Assembly (NCBI RefSeq): GCF_027012695.1
Contig: NZ_JALUYR010000023.1
Coordinates: forward strand, 1-41,063
Length of the DNA stretch: 41,063 bases
Direction: 5' to 3'
From: Thermococcus sp.
Lineage (GTDB): Archaea; Methanobacteriota_B; Thermococci; Thermococcales; Thermococcaceae
The translations under genes and the position numbers were made by a program. Of this stretch, positions 5,794 to 38,138 are shown piece after piece. Position 1 is the first letter of the stretch; each line of letters starts with the position of its first letter. The notes under the pieces were generated by a model. The model saw only the letters and a program-made list of their open reading frames with translations. It searched no databases and was not told the origin of the DNA.

Positions 5794-5880
5794 TGGCGCC
5801 GGGGCAGGGATTTGAACCCTGGCGGGCTAACGCCCACGGACTCTCCAGGCCCGCGCCTTCCCAGGCTAGGCTACCCCGGC
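5794..5880 (-). tRNA. tRNA-Ser (anticodon GGA)
   Basis: On minus the acceptor GCCGGGG pairs with CCCCGGC. The anticodon loop CTGGAGA gives GGA, read as Ser (UCC/UCU). A long class II variable arm (TGGGCGTTAGCCC region) and the T-loop TTCAAAT with its CAGGG/CCCTG stem complete it. The 3' CCA is encoded (5796-5794). It follows rps10 by 14 nt and is probably cotranscribed with tuf-rps10 and cut out of the transcript. Confidence 0.96.
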
Positions 5881-6248: not shown

Positions 6249-7535
6249 TCACTCGGCCTTCTGGATGGATATGACCATACCGGCAGCGACGGTCTGGCCC
6301 ATGTCACGGATGGCGAAGCGGCCCATCTGCGGGATCTCCTTGACCGGCTCGATGACCATCGGCTTGGTCGGCCTGAGAACGACGATGGCCGAGTCACCGG
6401 TCTTGATGAACTGCGGGTTCTCCTCGACGACGTTACCGGTCCTTGGATCGAGCTTGGCCAGGAGCTGCTCGAACCTGACGGCGACCTGGAGGGTGTGCGC
6501 GTGGAGGACCGGGGTGTAGCCGACGGTTATTGCAGTCGGGTGGTTGAGGACGATGATCTGGGCCTTGAAGGTGTCCTTCGGCCTGACGACGGTCGGCGGG
6601 TTGTTGGTGTGGCCTGCAACATCACCGCGCTTTATGTCGTTCTTACCGACACCGCGGACGTTGAATCCGATGTTGTCACCCGGATAGGCTTCCTGGAGGG
6701 GCTCGTGGTGCATCTCGATGGACTTTACCTCACCCTGGACGGGCTTGTGGAAGATCGTGCTTGCAGGCTCGAAGATGACGGTGTCGCCAACCCTGAGAAC
6801 GCCGGTCTCGACCCTACCAACGGGGACGGTACCGACACCCTTGATGGAGTAGACGTCCTGGATCGGAATGCGGAGCGGCTTGTCAACCGGCTTCGGCGGC
6901 TCCGGTATCTGGTCGAGGGCCTCGAGGAGGGTCGGCCCCTTGTACCAGGGCATCTTGTCGCTCTTCTTGACAACGTTGTCGCCCTCCCAGGCGCTGATCG
7001 GGATGATCTGGACGTTCTTGTAACCGAGCATCTGAAGGAGCTTCTTGACCTGCTCGGCGACCTGCTTGAACTTCTTCTCGTCGTAGTTGACCATGTCCAT
7101 CTTGTTGACTGCGACTATGATATGGTTGATACCGAGGGTTCTCGCAAGGAAGGCGTGCTCCTTGGTCTGGGGCATGACACCGTCGGTGGCAGCGACAACG
7201 AGAACGGCAGCGTCGGCCTGGCTGGCACCGGTGATCATGTTCTTAACGAAGTCCCTGTGGCCCGGAGCGTCGATGATAGTAATGTAGCGGTGCGGGGTCT
7301 CGAACTTGGTGTGGGCGACGTCGATGGTGATACCCCTCTCGCGCTCCTCCTTGAGCCTGTCCATGACCCAGGCGAACTTGAAGGACTTACCCTTCTCACC
7401 CATCTCCTCAAACTTCTTGATGATGTTCTCCGGTATGTTCGCGGTGTCGAAGAGCAGCCTTCCGATGGTGGTGCTCTTTCCGTGGTCCACGTGGCCTATA
7501 AACACGATGTTAACGTGCGGCTTCTCCTTAGCCAT
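6249..7535 (-). CDS. tuf: Translation elongation factor EF-1 alpha
   Basis: The 428-aa GTPase delivers aminoacyl-tRNA to the ribosome. G1 GHVDHGKST, the switch region [17 protein letters not shown]3 DAPGH, G4 NKMD and G5 SAW are in order, followed by two beta-barrel domains ending [15 protein letters not shown]. The ATG at 7535 has GGAGGTG 7 nt upstream; a TTG two codons earlier is less likely. The TATA element (ATTTAAAAA, about 7583-7592) lies about 50 nt upstream, and a short palindrome sits between TATA and ribosome site. It heads the tuf-rps10-tRNA-Ser unit. Confidence 0.98.
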
Positions 7536-7559
7536 TTTCAAACACCTCCAGATTTTGGT

Positions 7560-7592
7560 CTAGTCTCGTTGACTAGGATGGCTTTTTAAATC
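7560..7592 (-). promoter_or_regulatory. EF-1A promoter with a CTAGTC/GACTAG palindrome at the predicted start site
   Basis: The TATA box (ATTTAAAAAG on minus) is at about 7583-7592. CTAGTC-5 nt-GACTAG at 7560-7576 overlaps the expected transcription start near 7562-7565. It may be an operator or form a hairpin at the mRNA 5' end. Upstream, 7593-7715 holds GC-rich sequence including the small inverted repeat GGCGGG-AAA-CCCGCC (about 7614-7628) and the 3' tail of the next gene; no other gene is seen there. Confidence 0.5.
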
Positions 7593-7715
7593 TTTCGAAC
7601 CTCGGCCCCCTCGGGCGGGAAACCCGCCGTTCGTTGGGGAGGCCTCACCAGTTCCGGGTTTACCTCATGTGGCGGGTTTAAAAAGTTAACTGCATGCGTT
7701 TTCTGACTTAAAACG

Positions 7716-8726
7716 TCACTCTGGGTTTGCTTTGTTCTCCGGAACCACCTCGTATAGCCTGATCGCGATTTTCCTGTTCTCGGGTAGCAGGTTTCGTTTA
7801 AACCGACATATCACCGTGGGTTCTGGAGGCTCTTCTTCTCCAACAACCCTTCTCAGTTCCCGTTTGAACGTTTTAGTTTTTCCCAGCAGGTACTCTCGGG
7901 TGACATCAAAGCCTGTGTTCTCCTCCAGGTTGATGAATGGTTCGTATTTATTCCGGGGGTTGCTCAGGTAGTCAAGCATGTGCCCATCGGCAATATAAAC
8001 TAGATACCTCTTAATGTTGGCTCCCGGTCTAAAGAGGGCGAGTTTGAGAACATCCGCGAACACTGCTCCGGCGTTGTTTGGTTTGGCCAGTTCATTATTC
8101 CCGATTTTCCTGTGAAACTTCATTTCAAATGCAATGGCAGGCCTGTCTCCTTTTGGAGCCACAAATGTGTCAAGTTTTGCATGGTTTCGATTGGGGACCT
8201 CGGGGTGGGGATATTCAAGATAAACCTCTGTCGGGCTTATTCTCCCGACGATCGTCAGCGCATGGAACATCATGTATCTCATTGTGTCTTCGCTCTCCCG
8301 GTAAATTTCATCAAGCTGAGAACGTCCCTCAAGTATTGCCCTGAGTCTCGTCTCCACGAGGAAGGCAAATTTCTCAAAAACCCCGTACATCCGTCTATCG
8401 AGCCCATCGGCTGGATACCCTCTGGCCAATGCACCCGTTGTACTCACTGCCCCGTTGTTTTGCCCATTCTCCACTCTTTCCTCTATTTGAAACCCCAGCC
8501 TCGTTAGATACCTCAAGGCATCTTGGGTTGTAAACTTTGACGGGTCTAACAATTCACCGTTGGCGTATCTGTTGGCGATGGACACAACGTACTTGGGCGG
8601 GTACTCGCGTCCATTGTGCACCAGGGAATAGCGTAGGGACCTGAACCTTCCTGGAACCCCATGTTCGTTTATTTCCAGTATAGCATTCAACACATGCTTT
8701 CGGATGATGTTCCTGGGAATGGCCAT
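7716..8726 (-). CDS. Putative modification-dependent restriction enzyme: ScoMcrA-like head plus PD-(D/E)XK nuclease
   Basis: Residues 1-82 of this 336-aa protein (IPRNIIRKHVLNAI..., SLVHNGREYPPKYVVSIA, RLGFQI) match my memory of the N-terminal head domain of ScoMcrA-type type IV restriction enzymes, which normally precedes a modified-base reader and an HNH nuclease. After a low-complexity linker (about 84-105), the C-terminal part looks like a PD-(D/E)XK fold: Glu171, Asp186 (KLDTFV), Glu201-x-Lys203 (IAFEMKFH), then a conserved-looking AGAVFADVLKLALF helix. The ATG at 8726 was preferred to an upstream in-frame start because a TATA-like TTTATACTT at about 8757-8766 puts transcription about 10 nt before it. 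It is AT-richer than its neighbours and sits alone between EF-2 and EF-1A, suggesting acquisition. No methylase partner is seen. Confidence 0.7.
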   Translation of the reverse strand: MAIPRNIIRKHVLNAILEINEHGVPGRFRSLRYSLVHNGREYPPKYVVSIANRYANGELLDPSKFTTQDALRYLTRLGFQIEERVENGQNNGAVSTTGALARGYPADGLDRRMYGVFEKFAFLVETRLRAILEGRSQLDEIYRESEDTMRYMMFHALTIVGRISPTEVYLEYPHPEVPNRNHAKLDTFVAPKGDRPAIAFEMKFHRKIGNNELAKPNNAGAVFADVLKLALFRPGANIKRYLVYIADGHMLDYLSNPRNKYEPFINLEENTGFDVTREYLLGKTKTFKRELRRVVGEEEPPEPTVICRFKRNLLPENRKIAIRLYEVVPENKANPE

Positions 8727-8812
8727 ACGAACACCAGTTCCAAAAATATCGGGAGAAGTATAAAATTGTATCCAGAAAGGGAAGGATATGAAAAGAGAGG
8801 AATAACGCCTCC

Positions 8813-11011
8813 TCACTGCTGCGGGCAGACGTCCTGCTCCTTCGGCGGGTTCGGGTCGAGGCCCTTCCTCTGGCGTATCTGCCTGATGATCTGCTGGGCC
8901 AGCTCGTTCGGGACGCGCTTGAATCCGGCATGTTCGGTGCTCCAGAGCGCCCTTCCGCTGGTGGCACCACGTATCGCTCCAGCGAATCCGAACATCTCCG
9001 CGACCGGTGCTTCCGCGATGATGATCATGACCTCTCCCTCCTGGCGCATGTCAATGAGCTGGCCGCGCCTCTGGTTGATCTCCCTGCTGACGGCACCCAT
9101 GTACTCGTATGGAACGTTGATGATGACCTTCTGGTAGGGCTCGTAGAGGACCGGGCCGGCCTTCATCATGGCGCAGTGTATAGCGGTCCTGATGGCGGGG
9201 TATATCTGGGCCGGACCGCGGTGGACGTTGTCCTCGTGGATCTTGGCGTCGTGGAGGCGAACGATAACCTTCATAACCGGCTCCCTGGCGAGCGGGCCCT
9301 CGTCCATGGCCATGTGGAAACCGTCAACGAGCAGGTCCATGACCTCGTTGAGGTACTGGATACCCTTGGTGTTGTCGAGGAACATATTGCCGTTGTAGAC
9401 GTCGACGATGCCTTTCGCGACCTCGTAGTCCATGCCGAGCTCCGCCAGCTTCTTGGCAACCTCCTTCGGGTTCTTGGGCCTGCCTTCGGGGATTATGCCC
9501 TCCCTGATGGCCTCGTAGATCTCGTCCGGCATCGGCTCCACGGTGATGTAGAACCTGTTGTGCTTGTTCGGGCTCTTTCCTTCAACTATCGGGCTGGGCT
9601 TGCTGACGCTCTCGCGGTAAACCACTATCGGCGGTGAAACGTCGACGTCGAGCTTCCAGTCCTCCTTGAGCTTGACGAGCTTGACCTCGAGGTGGAGCTC
9701 ACCCATACCGCTGAGGAGGTGCTGGCCGGTCTCTTCGTCAATCTTGACGTGCAGAGTTGGGTCCTCCTTGGCGAGCTGCCTCAAAGCCTCGATAAGCTTC
9801 GGAAGGTCCTTGACGTTTTTGGCCTCAATCGCGACGGTAACGACCGGCTCGCTCGCGTAGTGGAGGGCCTCGAAGGGCTCAATCTTTTCGGTCGAGACTG
9901 TCTCACCGGCCATGGCATCGCGGAGACCTGTAACCGCGACGATGTTTCCGGCAGGGACGGCCTCCATGTTGACCCTCTCGGGACCCATGTAGATACCGAC
10001 CTGCTGGATCCTGGACTTCCTCTTGGCGTTGATGAGGTAAACCTCCTGGCCGGTCTTCACCGTACCGCTCCAGACGCGGCCGGTTGAAACTTCACCGGCG
10101 TGCTTGTCGAGGATGATCTTGGTGACGACCATCGTCATCGGTCCCTTCGGGTCGCACTTGAGCATGGCCTGGCCGACCTCGCTGTTGACGTCTCCCCTCC
10201 AGAGGTGCGGGATCCTGTACTTCTGGGCCTCAAGCGGGTTCGGGAGGTGTCTGACGACCATGTCCAGAACCACAACGTGAAGCGGGGCCTTCTGGCGAAG
10301 GGTCTTCAAATCACCGCTGTTGGTGAGCTCGACGATGTCCTTGAAGGAAACGCCGGTCTTCTTCATGTAGGGAACGCTGAGCGCCCAGTTGTAGTAGGCA
10401 CTTCCAAAGGCGACGCTACCGTCCTCAACTTTTACCATCCACTGGCTCTTGAACTCCTCGGGCGCGTACTTCTTGATGAGCCTGTTGACGTCGGTGATGA
10501 TCTTGGCGAACCTCTGGAGTATCTCGTTCGGTCCGAGCTTGAGCTCCTTTATGAGACGGTCAACCTTGTTGATGAAAAGGACCGGCTTAACGTACTCGCG
10601 AAGGGCCTGTCTGAGGACGGTCTCGGTCTGGGGCATCACTCCTTCAACGGCGTCAACAACGATGATGGCACCGTCTATGGCACGCATGGCCCTCGTAACG
10701 TCACCGCCGAAGTCAACGTGACCGGGAGTATCAATCAGGTTGATGAGGTAGTCGTTGCCCTCGTAGTTGTGAACCATCGAGACGTTGGCCGCGTTGATGG
10801 TAATTCCTCTCGCCTGCTCCTGCTCGTCGAAATCCAAAACGAGCTGCTTTCCGGCGAGCTCTTCGCTTATCATTCCAGCTCCGGCGAGCAGGTTGTCGCT
10901 GAGGGTCGTCTTACCGTGGTCAATGTGAGCGGCGATACCCATGTTCCTGATCCTCTCGGGCTGGGTCATCAGTTCTTTGATCTTCGCAATCATCTCTTCC
11001 CTTCTTCCCAT
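8813..11011 (-). CDS. fusA: Translation elongation factor EF-2
   Basis: The 732-aa translocase GTPase has G1 [10 protein letters not shown], the switch region [17 protein letters not shown]3 [10 protein letters not shown] and G4 NKVDR. Domain IV has [11 protein letters not shown], which contains the loop bearing the diphthamide histidine, and domain V has [16 protein letters not shown]. Its length is that of archaeal EF-2. GGTGAT precedes the ATG at 11011. A TATA box (CTTTATAAC, about 11062-11071) is about 50 nt upstream. The stop lies 86 nt before the start of the downstream nuclease gene, whose own promoter falls in that gap. Confidence 0.98.
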
Positions 11012-14227: not shown

Positions 14228-15280
14228 TCACCTCCTTTTAAGTCTCCCCACAACAACCAAGCCGAGGAGCAGCAGGGAACCGTAGAAGATGTAAGCTACT
14301 TTGGTTTTTGGTTTCCTAAAAATAACCTTTTCTACCTCCCCCTCATTAATTCTAAATGATTTGAGGAAGAGACCGAAAGCATATAAATAATCGTGTTTAA
14401 CCTCCACTCTGTAGCAGGAGTATTCGTCTATAAAATCTGCATTGAGGATGCCAATCGCCCAGAGGTCCGGGCCGCTATTGAGTGTTGTTATGAGTTTCCC
14501 ATCGGAGGCATCAAACGTATAACTCAAGGTGGCCATTGGTACAATTTCAATCGGAAATCCCCTTCCAAAGGGCTGTGTTATGTTAAAAGAGTAGTAATCA
14601 GTAACCACTGTCTTTGTTGGAGGATAATAGATGATGTTCTTCCATTTTAGGGGATCCCTGTTGTTGATAGTGATTTTGTTTATGGTTGTGAAAAAGGGAT
14701 ACACCGTAAAGACTTCCCCCTCTTTGAGAGGGTTTCCGGGGTCATCAAAAAGCATTGTGTGGCCATAGGCTATCCCGTCCCGTATCACCTGCAGATCCTT
14801 CTTCCTGATAGTATAGGCCCCTCCTATTTTGACCGTTCTCAATTCAAAAATATACCACGTCCAGTTCTTGAAGTTGAATTCGTGACTTTTCTCAGTTCTC
14901 TCCGAGATCAGCTCTGACTCGTTCCAGAAAATTCGGGGAGACACTCCCCTGGGGAGGATGGTCATGATAGTAACGTTGCTCAAAAGAACGGTAACGTGCG
15001 AGTGTATATATCTGCCCTGGTCTTTAAGTTTGAAAATGACCTCAGTGTCGTTGTGTGCCTGTATTACGTAGGCCACTCCAGAGTAGTTGTAGATCATTAA
15101 AGAGGTTGTTACCCACTCGGGTTTGTCCCCACGCGAAAGCCGGTACTGGATATAGGGGTTGTATCTTGAGGAAACATAAACTAATGATGCATTTCCATGG
15201 AGTTCAAATGCACTGGAAAGAGAGGCTGTAAAAAGAATGAACGCTACTAATAAGAGGCCCATTGCCCTATACATACTCAC
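14228..15280 (-). CDS. Membrane-anchored extracellular protein of unknown function
   Basis: The 350-aa protein has an N-terminal signal peptide (hydrophobic GLLLVAFILFTASLSSAF), a ~300-residue beta-rich external domain with many N-x-S/T sites, and a C-terminal anchor (YIFYGSLLLLGLVVVGRLKRR, about 329-349). The start is a GTG at 15280 behind GGGGG, or an ATG two codons on. No family is recognised. The coding region is AT-richer than the flanking housekeeping genes. It stands 4 nt before the permease and 49 nt after a small secreted protein, so it probably acts with the ABC system at the cell surface. Confidence 0.8.
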   Translation of the reverse strand: MSMYRAMGLLLVAFILFTASLSSAFELHGNASLVYVSSRYNPYIQYRLSRGDKPEWVTTSLMIYNYSGVAYVIQAHNDTEVIFKLKDQGRYIHSHVTVLLSNVTIMTILPRGVSPRIFWNESELISERTEKSHEFNFKNWTWYIFELRTVKIGGAYTIRKKDLQVIRDGIAYGHTMLFDDPGNPLKEGEVFTVYPFFTTINKITINNRDPLKWKNIIYYPPTKTVVTDYYSFNITQPFGRGFPIEIVPMATLSYTFDASDGKLITTLNSGPDLWAIGILNADFIDEYSCYRVEVKHDYLYAFGLFLKSFRINEGEVEKVIFRKPKTKVAYIFYGSLLLLGLVVVGRLKRR

Positions 15281-35130: not shown

Positions 35131-36684
35131 ATGGGGAACTCCCGAAGAATCCTCCTCGTCACCGGCAGACTGGCAGAGCCGCTCGTCAGGAAGTACGGTA
35201 AAGGTTGCGACGTCTTCGTTGCCCCTGTGAGCGTCGCGGCCTTCCTTACGCCTCAGCTTATCGCCCGCTACCTCAAAAAGACCGGAATCCGGAGCGAGGA
35301 CTACGACCTGATACTTATTCCGGGCCTCGTCCGCGGTTCCGCCCAACTCGTAGAGGACGAGCTTGGAATCCCGGCATTCAAGGGGCCGAGGAACGCGATG
35401 GATTTGCCCCAGACCCTTAAGGCTCTCCGCGATGGCTTCAAGCTGAGCAGGGAAATCCCTGCTGACGACCTCTTCTCTGTTGATGCGCTCAAGAGGGTGG
35501 AGGATATAAGAAACAGAACGGGGAACAGGCGCTACATAGAGAAAGCCCTCAAGAAGCCCTGGAACGTCCTCGTTGGAAACCTGCCAGCTGGAAGGGACTT
35601 CCCGGCGAGGATTTTGGGTGAGGTGGTTGACGCTCCGAGGCTCGGCGTAGAAAAAACGGTCGAGAAAGCCCTCTACTACCTCCGCGAGGGAGCTGACATA
35701 ATAGACATCGGCATGGTCGCTGGAGAAACCAACCCTGACTTCATTGAGGAAATTCCGGAGATCCGCGAGCGACTTGCAGGGAAGGGCTTCGACGTTCCGA
35801 TAAGCTTCGACTCGCTAAACACGGCCGAGATCGAGAGGGCCTTGGACTACGCCGACCTTTTCTTAAGCGTTGATGCCGGAAACGTTGAGGAACTCGTGAC
35901 GGAGAAACCGGTCGTTCTAATCCCAACGAACCAGAGTACGGGATTCTTCCCCGCGAAACCGAGCGAGCGAGTTGAGTTCCTTGAGAGACTGAAGGAGAAG
36001 GCCCTTGACCTTGGATACGGAACGGTCATTCCCGATCTAATCCTCGAGCACGTCCCCCATTTAGCTCGTTCCATCACAGCCTTCCAGCTCTACCGCGAGA
36101 GGAACCCAGATGATGTCCTTTTAGCGGGCGTTGGGAACGTGGTTGAGCTCTACGATGCCGACAGCGTTGGCATGAACGCCCTTCTCTCTGGAATCTCGAA
36201 GGAGCTTTCAATAAACCTTCTCCTCACGACCGAAACCAGCCCGAAGGCGAGGGGATCGGTGAGGGAGTTGAGGAGAGCCGTTGACATGAACCTCTTTGAG
36301 ATACCGAAGGATTTGGGCTTCGACCTCCTGATACTGAAGGAGAAGAGGTCTGTCGAGTGGAGGTTCGAGCCTGCCGAAAAGATCATCGAGGCCAGGGAAA
36401 AACCAGTTCGGCTTGAGCCGGTTTACTTCAGGATATGGGTCGAGGACGGAAGAATCTGGGTCAACGCCCACCGCGGGACGGAGGTAATTCTTACAATCGT
36501 CGGCGATGAGCCGAACGCCATAATAGACACGATCCTGGAGCACTTTGATATAGGCCCCAGGCATGCCTTCTATCTCGGCCGCGAGCTGGAGAGGGCGAAG
36601 ACAGCCTTAAAGCTGAGGCGAAGCTACGTCCAGGAGGTCGAGCTCTTCGGGGAGTTTTACGTTTTCAAAGGAGTTGATGTGTAA
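35131..36684 (+). CDS. Dihydropteroate synthase-like protein (MJ0107/TIGR00284 type)
   Basis: In this 517-aa protein residues 1-150 form a DUF6513-like domain (VFVAPVSVAAFLTPQLIARYL). About 165-400 is a TIM barrel with pterin-binding features (GADIIDIGMVAGETNP, VPISFDSLN, DAGN) and the C-terminus is a further alpha/beta domain. MJ0107-type proteins are thought to act in archaeal pterin (methanopterin-like) cofactor synthesis, joining the pterin to an aryl amine. The exact reaction is not proven here. GGAGGTTC lies before the ATG. Its 3' end overlaps the convergent ATPase gene by 20 bp. MptA in the same window makes the first intermediate of this pathway. Confidence 0.9.
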   Translation: MGNSRRILLVTGRLAEPLVRKYGKGCDVFVAPVSVAAFLTPQLIARYLKKTGIRSEDYDLILIPGLVRGSAQLVEDELGIPAFKGPRNAMDLPQTLKALRDGFKLSREIPADDLFSVDALKRVEDIRNRTGNRRYIEKALKKPWNVLVGNLPAGRDFPARILGEVVDAPRLGVEKTVEKALYYLREGADIIDIGMVAGETNPDFIEEIPEIRERLAGKGFDVPISFDSLNTAEIERALDYADLFLSVDAGNVEELVTEKPVVLIPTNQSTGFFPAKPSERVEFLERLKEKALDLGYGTVIPDLILEHVPHLARSITAFQLYRERNPDDVLLAGVGNVVELYDADSVGMNALLSGISKELSINLLLTTETSPKARGSVRELRRAVDMNLFEIPKDLGFDLLILKEKRSVEWRFEPAEKIIEAREKPVRLEPVYFRIWVEDGRIWVNAHRGTEVILTIVGDEPNAIIDTILEHFDIGPRHAFYLGRELERAKTALKLRRSYVQEVELFGEFYVFKGVDV

Positions 36685-38062
36685 AATCCTCTAAGTCCCA
36701 CACCAGCCAGTCCTCTTCCCTAAGCTCATCCTTCCCCTCGACCTTCTTCGCCACAAGCCCGTATCTCTTCTCCCACCCATCCAATCCCACAAGCTCGCTC
36801 TTCCTCTCCAAGTCCTTCAAAACTCCCCGCGCTTCTCTCTCGCTTAGCTCTTTCCATTTAACTTCGACAAACAGGGCCTTCCTCTCCCGCTCGTTCAAAG
36901 CAACCACATCGATTTCCTCCCCTTTCCTCCACCACCTACCGAGCTTCGTGAAGCGGAACCCGGTTATCTCAAAAAACACCTCGGGCCTTCTCACGAGGTT
37001 CTCAAAGACCCAGCCAGTGTAGGCATTGAAGTCCTCCCGCGAGCGCTCCCAGACCTCCTCTGCGAGACCGGCCTCAAGGTAGCTCTTGTTCGGGAGGACG
37101 TAGCGGAACCAGAATGCGAAGTAGTTGTCGGCTATCGAGTAGAGCCCCCTCTTTGTGGTCTCCTTTGAGGTGGCCGTCACCGGGACTTCCCTCTTTACCA
37201 CCTCGAGCCTCTGGAGGACGGAGAGGTACTTGGAGACAAGGCTCTTGTCAAGGCCTGTCGCGTTCACTATCTCCCCAAAGCGGCTCCTCCCACTTGCTAT
37301 CGCCTCCAGTATAGCGAAGTAGTTGGCCGGTTCGCGGAGCTCCTCCCTGAGTAGTATCTCCGCCTCCTCGTAGAGGAAAGCCCCCTTGGAGAGGACGTTC
37401 TTAACCACGTTCTCGTCAAAGGTCTTTTTCGAGTCGAACTGAAGCAGGTAAGCGGGAATGCCTCCGAGGACGCCGTAGGCCTTCACGAGCTCCTCCGTCG
37501 AATAGTCGGGAAGGAACTCGCCGATATGGAAGAACGGTATCTCCGTCACCCTCCACTGCCCCGTTCTCCTCCCGTAGAGGGGGCTTTTATACGCCAGAAT
37601 CTCCGTTTCCATGGCCGAGACGCTTGAACCGCAGAGGACGAGCATTATTCCCGTCTCCGAGAGCTTTAAGTCCCACGCCTTTTGGAGGAGGGACAACACA
37701 GGCCGGTACCTCTCGATCAGGAGCGGGAATTCGTCTATTATGAGGACCACTCGCTTCTTGCCTATCCTGTCTGCAAAGACGGTTAAAAGTTCGTCAATGT
37801 TCTTGAATTGAACCCTCCCAAAGAGCTCGTCGCCGAGGAACTCCGCCAGGAGCCTCTGCAAATCCTTGAGGTTCTCGGCGTAGGGCCTCTCCGTTGCCAG
37901 AAAATAGACGTGGGGCTTGTCCCGGGCGAACCTGAGGAGCAGTTCGGTCTTCCCTATCCTTCGTCTCCCGTAGATTACGAGAAGTTCTGCCTTTCCGCTT
38001 GAATACCTCCTCTCCAAAAACTCAAGCTCACGCTCCCTATCGACGAACTTTTGTCTACTCAT
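36665..38062 (-). CDS. Archaeal AAA ATPase with DUF234 (PD-(D/E)XK-like) C-terminus
   Basis: The 465-aa protein of the MJ-type ATPase family has Walker A YGRRRIGKTELL (about 30-41), Walker B VVLIIDEFPLLIE, sensor LVLCGSSVSAME, a winged helix (SRFGEIVNATGLDKSLVSKYLSVLQ, about 268-292) and DUF234. The latter has a nuclease-like EEIDVVALN...ALFVEVKWK site (Asp, Glu-x-Lys). A TATA-like TTTTTAAGT about 27 nt upstream makes the ATG at 38062 leaderless. Function is unknown; the family is linked to mobile or defence DNA. Unlike the ATPase at 1-1008 it is intact. Confidence 0.92.
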   Translation of the reverse strand: MSRQKFVDRERELEFLERRYSSGKAELLVIYGRRRIGKTELLLRFARDKPHVYFLATERPYAENLKDLQRLLAEFLGDELFGRVQFKNIDELLTVFADRIGKKRVVLIIDEFPLLIERYRPVLSLLQKAWDLKLSETGIMLVLCGSSVSAMETEILAYKSPLYGRRTGQWRVTEIPFFHIGEFLPDYSTEELVKAYGVLGGIPAYLLQFDSKKTFDENVVKNVLSKGAFLYEEAEILLREELREPANYFAILEAIASGRSRFGEIVNATGLDKSLVSKYLSVLQRLEVVKREVPVTATSKETTKRGLYSIADNYFAFWFRYVLPNKSYLEAGLAEEVWERSREDFNAYTGWVFENLVRRPEVFFEITGFRFTKLGRWWRKGEEIDVVALNERERKALFVEVKWKELSEREARGVLKDLERKSELVGLDGWEKRYGLVAKKVEGKDELREEDWLVWDLEDFTHQLL

Positions 38063-38138
38063 AAGTATTATACCCACGTTTCAACTACTTAAAAATTTCG
38101 GGGGCAAACCTTAACTTCCCTTCCGCGTACTCCCTCCG

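Follow-up and report, generated by a model that had tools for sequence, protein, structure and literature searches.

A ScoMcrA-type head joined to a putative PD-(D/E)XK nuclease in Thermococcus: a candidate single-chain effector of a type IV-like restriction cassette

The head-nuclease gene and its genomic slot

In the window (the whole stretch of 41,063 nt analysed here), an open reading frame on the minus strand extends from an ATG start codon at 8726 to a TGA stop codon at 7716 and encodes a protein of 336 amino acids. It is flanked by the genes of the elongation factors EF-2 (8813-11011) and EF-1A (6249-7541). As an earlier note on this DNA had claimed for both its position and its composition, the gene lies between the two and is richer in AT, with a GC content of 0.49 and a GC3 of 0.55 compared with 0.585-0.589 and 0.81-0.84 for EF-2 and EF-1A. 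Based on the reading frame and its homologues, the gene (7716-8726) can be divided into a ScoMcrA-type head (residues 1-85, 8472-8726), a linker (residues 86-105, 8412-8471) and a putative PD-(D/E)XK nuclease domain (residues 106-336, 7719-8411). The linker marks the point at which the homologues from a Thermococcus barophilus plasmid and from the PYG1 island carry a DUF7662 domain. A TATA-like TTTTATA motif on the same strand (8759-8765), situated some 39 nt upstream of the start codon, is compatible with an archaeal promoter followed by a short leader. A sigma-70 promoter scan was set aside as irrelevant to archaea.

The gene is part of an inserted segment (7692-8812), as the conserved flanks stop at about 7691 on the EF-1A promoter side and at the EF-2 stop codon at 8813. 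In 84 of 94 genomes, the EF-1A promoter region is conserved as far as about 7691, and the interval between this region and EF-2 measures only 75-139 bp in G011, G042, G058, G019, G036, G056 and G034. The same slot is occupied by a 173-aa membrane-like protein in five other genomes and by an AAA ATPase in several more. The comparison of this interval among relatives, which the earlier note had proposed, revealed that it is empty in several of them and filled with other genes in others; with L062-L101 as the comparison, the EF-2/EF-1A interval (window 7541-8813) emerges as a slot for gene swapping in Thermococcus.

Several further features of the surroundings were observed. An ATPase_2-DUF234 archaeal ATPase, of the same kind as the EF-slot ATPases of other species, is encoded at 36665-38077, and an AT-rich reading frame of 350 aa (14228-15280, GC 0.44, no Pfam match) is found among neighbors of higher GC content. 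A tRNA-Ser(GGA) gene is located beyond rpsJ (5794-5880), and in another genome (G053) a headless homologue of the nuclease with a C-terminal DUF7662-like domain is situated just past EF-1A and rpsJ (L026 1567-2643). The EF-1A/rpsJ neighborhood may be a wider integration hotspot.

The N-terminal head

As a single sequence, the whole 336-aa protein showed weak matches to ScoMcrA in the PDB (E=0.57) and to mREase_IV in PADLOC (E=0.047). A firmer connection is provided by a Rhodococcus protein that combines the head with an HNH nuclease (HNH_2), as it is matched by the head of the 336-aa protein (tblastn, E=3e-4) and its own head in turn matches residues 5-96 of ScoMcrA (E=7e-15). A profile built from twelve heads, including the Rhodococcus row, retrieved ScoMcrA at E=6e-10; omission of this row reduced the match to E=0.048 and left the register unchanged. 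The AlphaFold2 model of the head (pLDDT 90.6) was compared with the PDB by Foldseek and yielded 5zmm_B, i.e., ScoMcrA, as its only significant match (probability 1.00, E=6.7e-4, TMq 0.67). Because transitive homology, head profile and fold agree, the assignment is firm: residues 1-85 are confirmed as a ScoMcrA-type head, corresponding to ScoMcrA residues ~4-94. The identification of the N-terminus in the earlier note is thereby borne out by sequence links and by the predicted structure alike.

In the ScoMcrA structure paper, the head is described as small and flexibly attached and was assigned no known function, while phosphorothioate is bound by a separate domain, the SBD (PMC6224610). To call the head a modified-DNA reader is therefore not warranted. 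In the window protein it carries a net charge of +5, which permits nucleic-acid binding without demonstrating it. The same head is also present on HNH nucleases, on McrB-like GTPases of Thermococcales (L024, L028, L030) and on McrB-like GTPases encoded by contigs of a viral collection (L043, L046-L049). Two further contigs of this collection carry ScoMcrA-type heads joined to unrecognised domains (L044 5995-7182, L045 3240-4310).

The C-terminal domain

Searches of Pfam, NCBIfam, PADLOC and PHROGs with the C-terminal domain retrieved no convincing family match, and matches to AHH, Met-zincin and XTBD were dismissed as weak and single-member. Conservation within the family was more informative. 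Eight homologues from eight Thermococcales sources could be aligned with the nuclease domain, and a more distant homologue was detected in a DPANN-like genome (G347; profile E=4.7e-9, 17% identity). Invariant positions of an eight-row alignment of the domain are S145, E146, R150, E171, K184, D186, E201, K203, D225, R240, Y241 and D247. The first three belong to the motif ESEDTMR (residues 144-150, 8277-8297), which is proposed to form helix 1. The earlier note had based its nuclease call on a motif with D186, E201 and K203 and had named a lack of their conservation among homologues as a possible refutation. A check of the sequence found D, E and K at these positions, and all three are invariant across the eight aligned domains (alignments A1 and A6), including the one of 17% identity; the claim was not refuted on this count. 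By chance, three prespecified residues would all fall into invariant columns with a probability of 4e-4, which becomes 3e-3 when the count is restricted to D, E and K positions. D186 (codon 8169-8171) is a proposed metal ligand and E201-M202-K203 (8118-8126) a proposed ExK motif.

The motif spacing D-x14-E-x-K, the hydrophobic flanks and the invariant acidic helix motif upstream are accompanied by an order of elements (helix with ESED..R, strand, strand with D, strand with ExK, helix, strand) that is consistent with PD-(D/E)XK enzymes, whose core fold is alpha-beta-beta-beta-alpha-beta. With three sequences as input, AlphaFold2 gave a poor model of the domain (pLDDT 54), and Foldseek searches of PDB and BFVD with it returned only unrelated folds of low probability. 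Comparison of the domain profile with Mrr_cat, Hjc, PDDEXK_7 and McrC by hhalign gave nothing significant; Hjc was aligned on its D...ExK motif below significance, and the Mrr-Hjc control itself reached a probability of only 14%. Since two true PD-(D/E)XK families scored no higher, such profile comparison has little power, and neither a solved PD-(D/E)XK relative nor a significant profile match was found for the domain. The conserved D/E/K triad supports a PD-(D/E)XK nuclease, and judged by these motifs the C-terminal domain very probably is one.

Homologues and the conserved cassette

The head-nuclease gene occurs in seven of 94 Thermococcales, and its carriage includes a plasmid and an integrative island. 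The closest homologues of the window protein are found in other genera of Thermococcaceae. Of two scans of genome contigs, the first gave no match and the second only two headless homologues, and the viral contigs held no relative of the nuclease domain, although heads on McrB were present. The absence of a visible separate reader domain, as stated in the earlier note, is true of the window protein; in the homologues of T. barophilus pTBMP1 and G126, DUF7662 (E about 1e-15) is located between head and nuclease, and a DUF7662-like domain forms the C-terminus of the headless homologues (G053, G058). This varying placement indicates that the nuclease domain is combined with exchangeable modules.

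In G066, G129, G122, G125 and pTBMP1, the head-nuclease gene is situated with an RNase J-like metallo-beta-lactamase gene on one side and the gene of a class-II glutamine amidotransferase (GATase_4) on the other. In G126, which judging by gene order and protein sizes (638, 321, 113 and 689 aa) corresponds to the PYG1 island of Pyrococcus yayanosii, a PLD-HerA gene upstream of the head-nuclease takes the place of the RNase J-like gene. Genes for gamma-glutamylcyclotransferase and ADP-ribosylglycohydrolase follow in three relatives (G129, G126, pTBMP1). The amidotransferase gene is located directly 3' of the head-nuclease gene in six of six relatives with both domains. Among the 94 Thermococcales, eight possess close amidotransferase copies, seven the head-nuclease and six both (hypergeometric p=2.4e-7, uncorrected for relatedness). 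In G066, the amidotransferase beside the head-nuclease is interrupted into two overlapping pieces with one stop (G066:C1:1528280-1529243), which suggests cassette decay.

The same position can be filled by a McrBC system. In G008, the RNase J-like gene and the amidotransferase enclose a head-McrB and McrC (PF10117), and in G037 head-McrB and McrC follow the RNase J-like gene while the amidotransferase is a decayed remnant. Proteins of nuclease and McrBC cassettes are 64-76% identical for the RNase J-like members and 72-75% for the amidotransferases. As the same slot holds either McrBC or the head-nuclease, a single protein takes the place of the head-McrB/McrC pair, and this exchange is the strongest evidence for a restriction-like effector role. 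The homologues also display the association with defence and McrBC genes and the mobile carriage by which type IV restriction was judged. Of the type IV restriction enzyme suggested initially, the head, the conserved triad, the insertion into the EF slot and the homologues in McrBC clusters stand, while the PD-(D/E)XK fold and a dependence on modified DNA are putative. The head itself gives no grounds for assuming a modification reader (PMC6224610).

Two of these regions contain additional genes. The island of G125 (L024 3056-15268) encodes GmrSD, head-McrB, McrC, the RNase J-like protein, the head-nuclease, the amidotransferase, a DUF2357-PDDEXK_7 protein and an AAA protein that matches PADLOC PDC-M26A. 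The G008 region (L030 6947-14715) encodes a 155-aa protein followed by the RNase J-like protein, head-McrB (1120 aa), McrC and the class-II amidotransferase, and carries genes for an Adenine_glyco domain protein and an ADP-ribosylglycohydrolase on the opposite strand.

Possible function and alternative explanations

Taken together, the protein is best explained, with a probability of roughly 0.6, as a metal-dependent endonuclease that works as a single chain within a type IV-like restriction module. In this model, the head would serve as a targeting or docking module common to the McrB GTPases of the same cassettes, and the PD-(D/E)XK-like domain would cut nucleic acid by means of D186, E201 and K203. 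In relatives, the head-nuclease replaces McrB-McrC beside the RNase J-like nuclease and the class-II glutamine amidotransferase. It probably acts there as a single-chain stand-in for McrBC within a restriction cassette of type IV-like character and is thus probably an anti-invader enzyme of a kind not described before. Modified DNA would be its target. In the window genome, an orphan gene would have been gained horizontally in the EF-2/EF-1A slot. No amidotransferase was found in this genome (91% complete), so the orphan head-nuclease may be idle; the copy fits an orphan effector that arrived horizontally and kept its active-site residues.

A nuclease for stress response or for RNA or DNA repair rather than restriction, which would join the RNase J-like enzyme and the amidotransferase in handling damaged nucleic acid under heat or oxidative stress, is an unlikely explanation. 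The homologue in PYG1, PYCH_15270, was listed as hypothetical and its module called metabolic; expression of PYCH_15270 and its partner PYCH_15260 is increased at 100 C as well as upon changes of pressure, their reported homologues PF1316 and PF1317 belong to a peroxide-induced cluster, and deletion of the whole PYG1 island impairs growth at 100 C (PMC5126054). This island phenotype, the sole one published, concerns temperature and pressure rather than phage and counts against the restriction reading. Genes for an RNase J-like enzyme, an ADP-ribosylglycohydrolase and a methyladenine glycosylase in the neighborhood would also suit repair. However, the patchy occurrence in seven of 94 Thermococcales, the location of copies on a plasmid and on an integrative island and the exchange with McrBC are typical traits of defence and not of a housekeeping function.

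An enzyme of PD-(D/E)XK type might alternatively cut unmodified or sequence-specific DNA, as a type II-like or nonspecific suicide nuclease regulated by its head or partners. The protein lacks a known modification reader, and DUF7662 might, in the homologues that carry it, simply bind DNA in an ordinary manner. But no methyltransferase is located directly beside the window gene, none is annotated in the cassettes that were inspected, and the head is common to ScoMcrA and McrB, which renders this explanation improbable. That the C-terminal domain is no nuclease, with D, E and K conserved for a different fold and reaction and the resemblance to the PD-(D/E)XK motif a coincidence, is the least probable explanation, as the missing family match, the lack of a significant Mrr_cat or Hjc profile match and the unusable fold model are opposed by the motif spacing, its hydrophobic flanks, the acidic helix motif, the expected element order and the alignment of Hjc, though not significant, on its own D...ExK motif.

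For the restriction reading, a more tentative extension can be considered, in which an undescribed archaeal defence cassette would consist of the RNase J-like nuclease, an exchangeable head effector (either head-McrBC or a single head-PD-(D/E)XK enzyme) and the class-II glutamine amidotransferase, with gamma-glutamylcyclotransferase and ADP-ribosylglycohydrolase as frequent additions. The head might then be the common adaptor and read a signal that the other enzymes of the cassette produce or remove. The novelty of the family is partial, as PYCH_15270 had already been listed (PMC5126054), but no paper among those searched points out the head or the nuclease motif, or notes the exchange with McrBC; new here is the genomic context of the gene in relatives. 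If the restriction reading is true, the head of the best-studied phosphorothioate-dependent restriction enzyme would be a general type IV adaptor that can be fitted either to a GTP-driven machine of two proteins or to one nuclease alone. Its function would be directly testable in thermostable proteins, and archaea would possess a new restriction cassette that unexpectedly includes an amidotransferase and an RNase J-like protein.

Comparison with known systems

Modification-dependent enzymes of the EVE-HNH and YTH-McrB type likewise combine a small N-terminal module with an exchangeable nuclease or motor; they differ in that the head of the window protein is not established as a PUA-type or other base reader. 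The type IV enzyme ScoMcrA (PDB 5zmm; head-SBD-SRA-HNH) shares its N-terminal head with the window protein, in which SBD, SRA and HNH gave no Pfam or NCBIfam match and no PDB match past the head, and which instead possesses a PD-(D/E)XK-like domain. The McrBC systems with head-McrB (G008, G037, G125) have the same head, and that of G008 (degraded in G037) occupies the same cassette slot, flanked by the RNase J-like gene and the amidotransferase. In contrast to these systems, the window protein is a single chain without GTPase whose nuclease domain is not McrC; McrB GTPase and McrC are both absent from it. The direct homologues are PYCH_15270 of PYG1 and WP_048160006.1 of T. barophilus pTBMP1, about 61-68% identical in head and nuclease; unlike the window protein, they carry DUF7662 between the two domains and are encoded in an operon with the amidotransferase.
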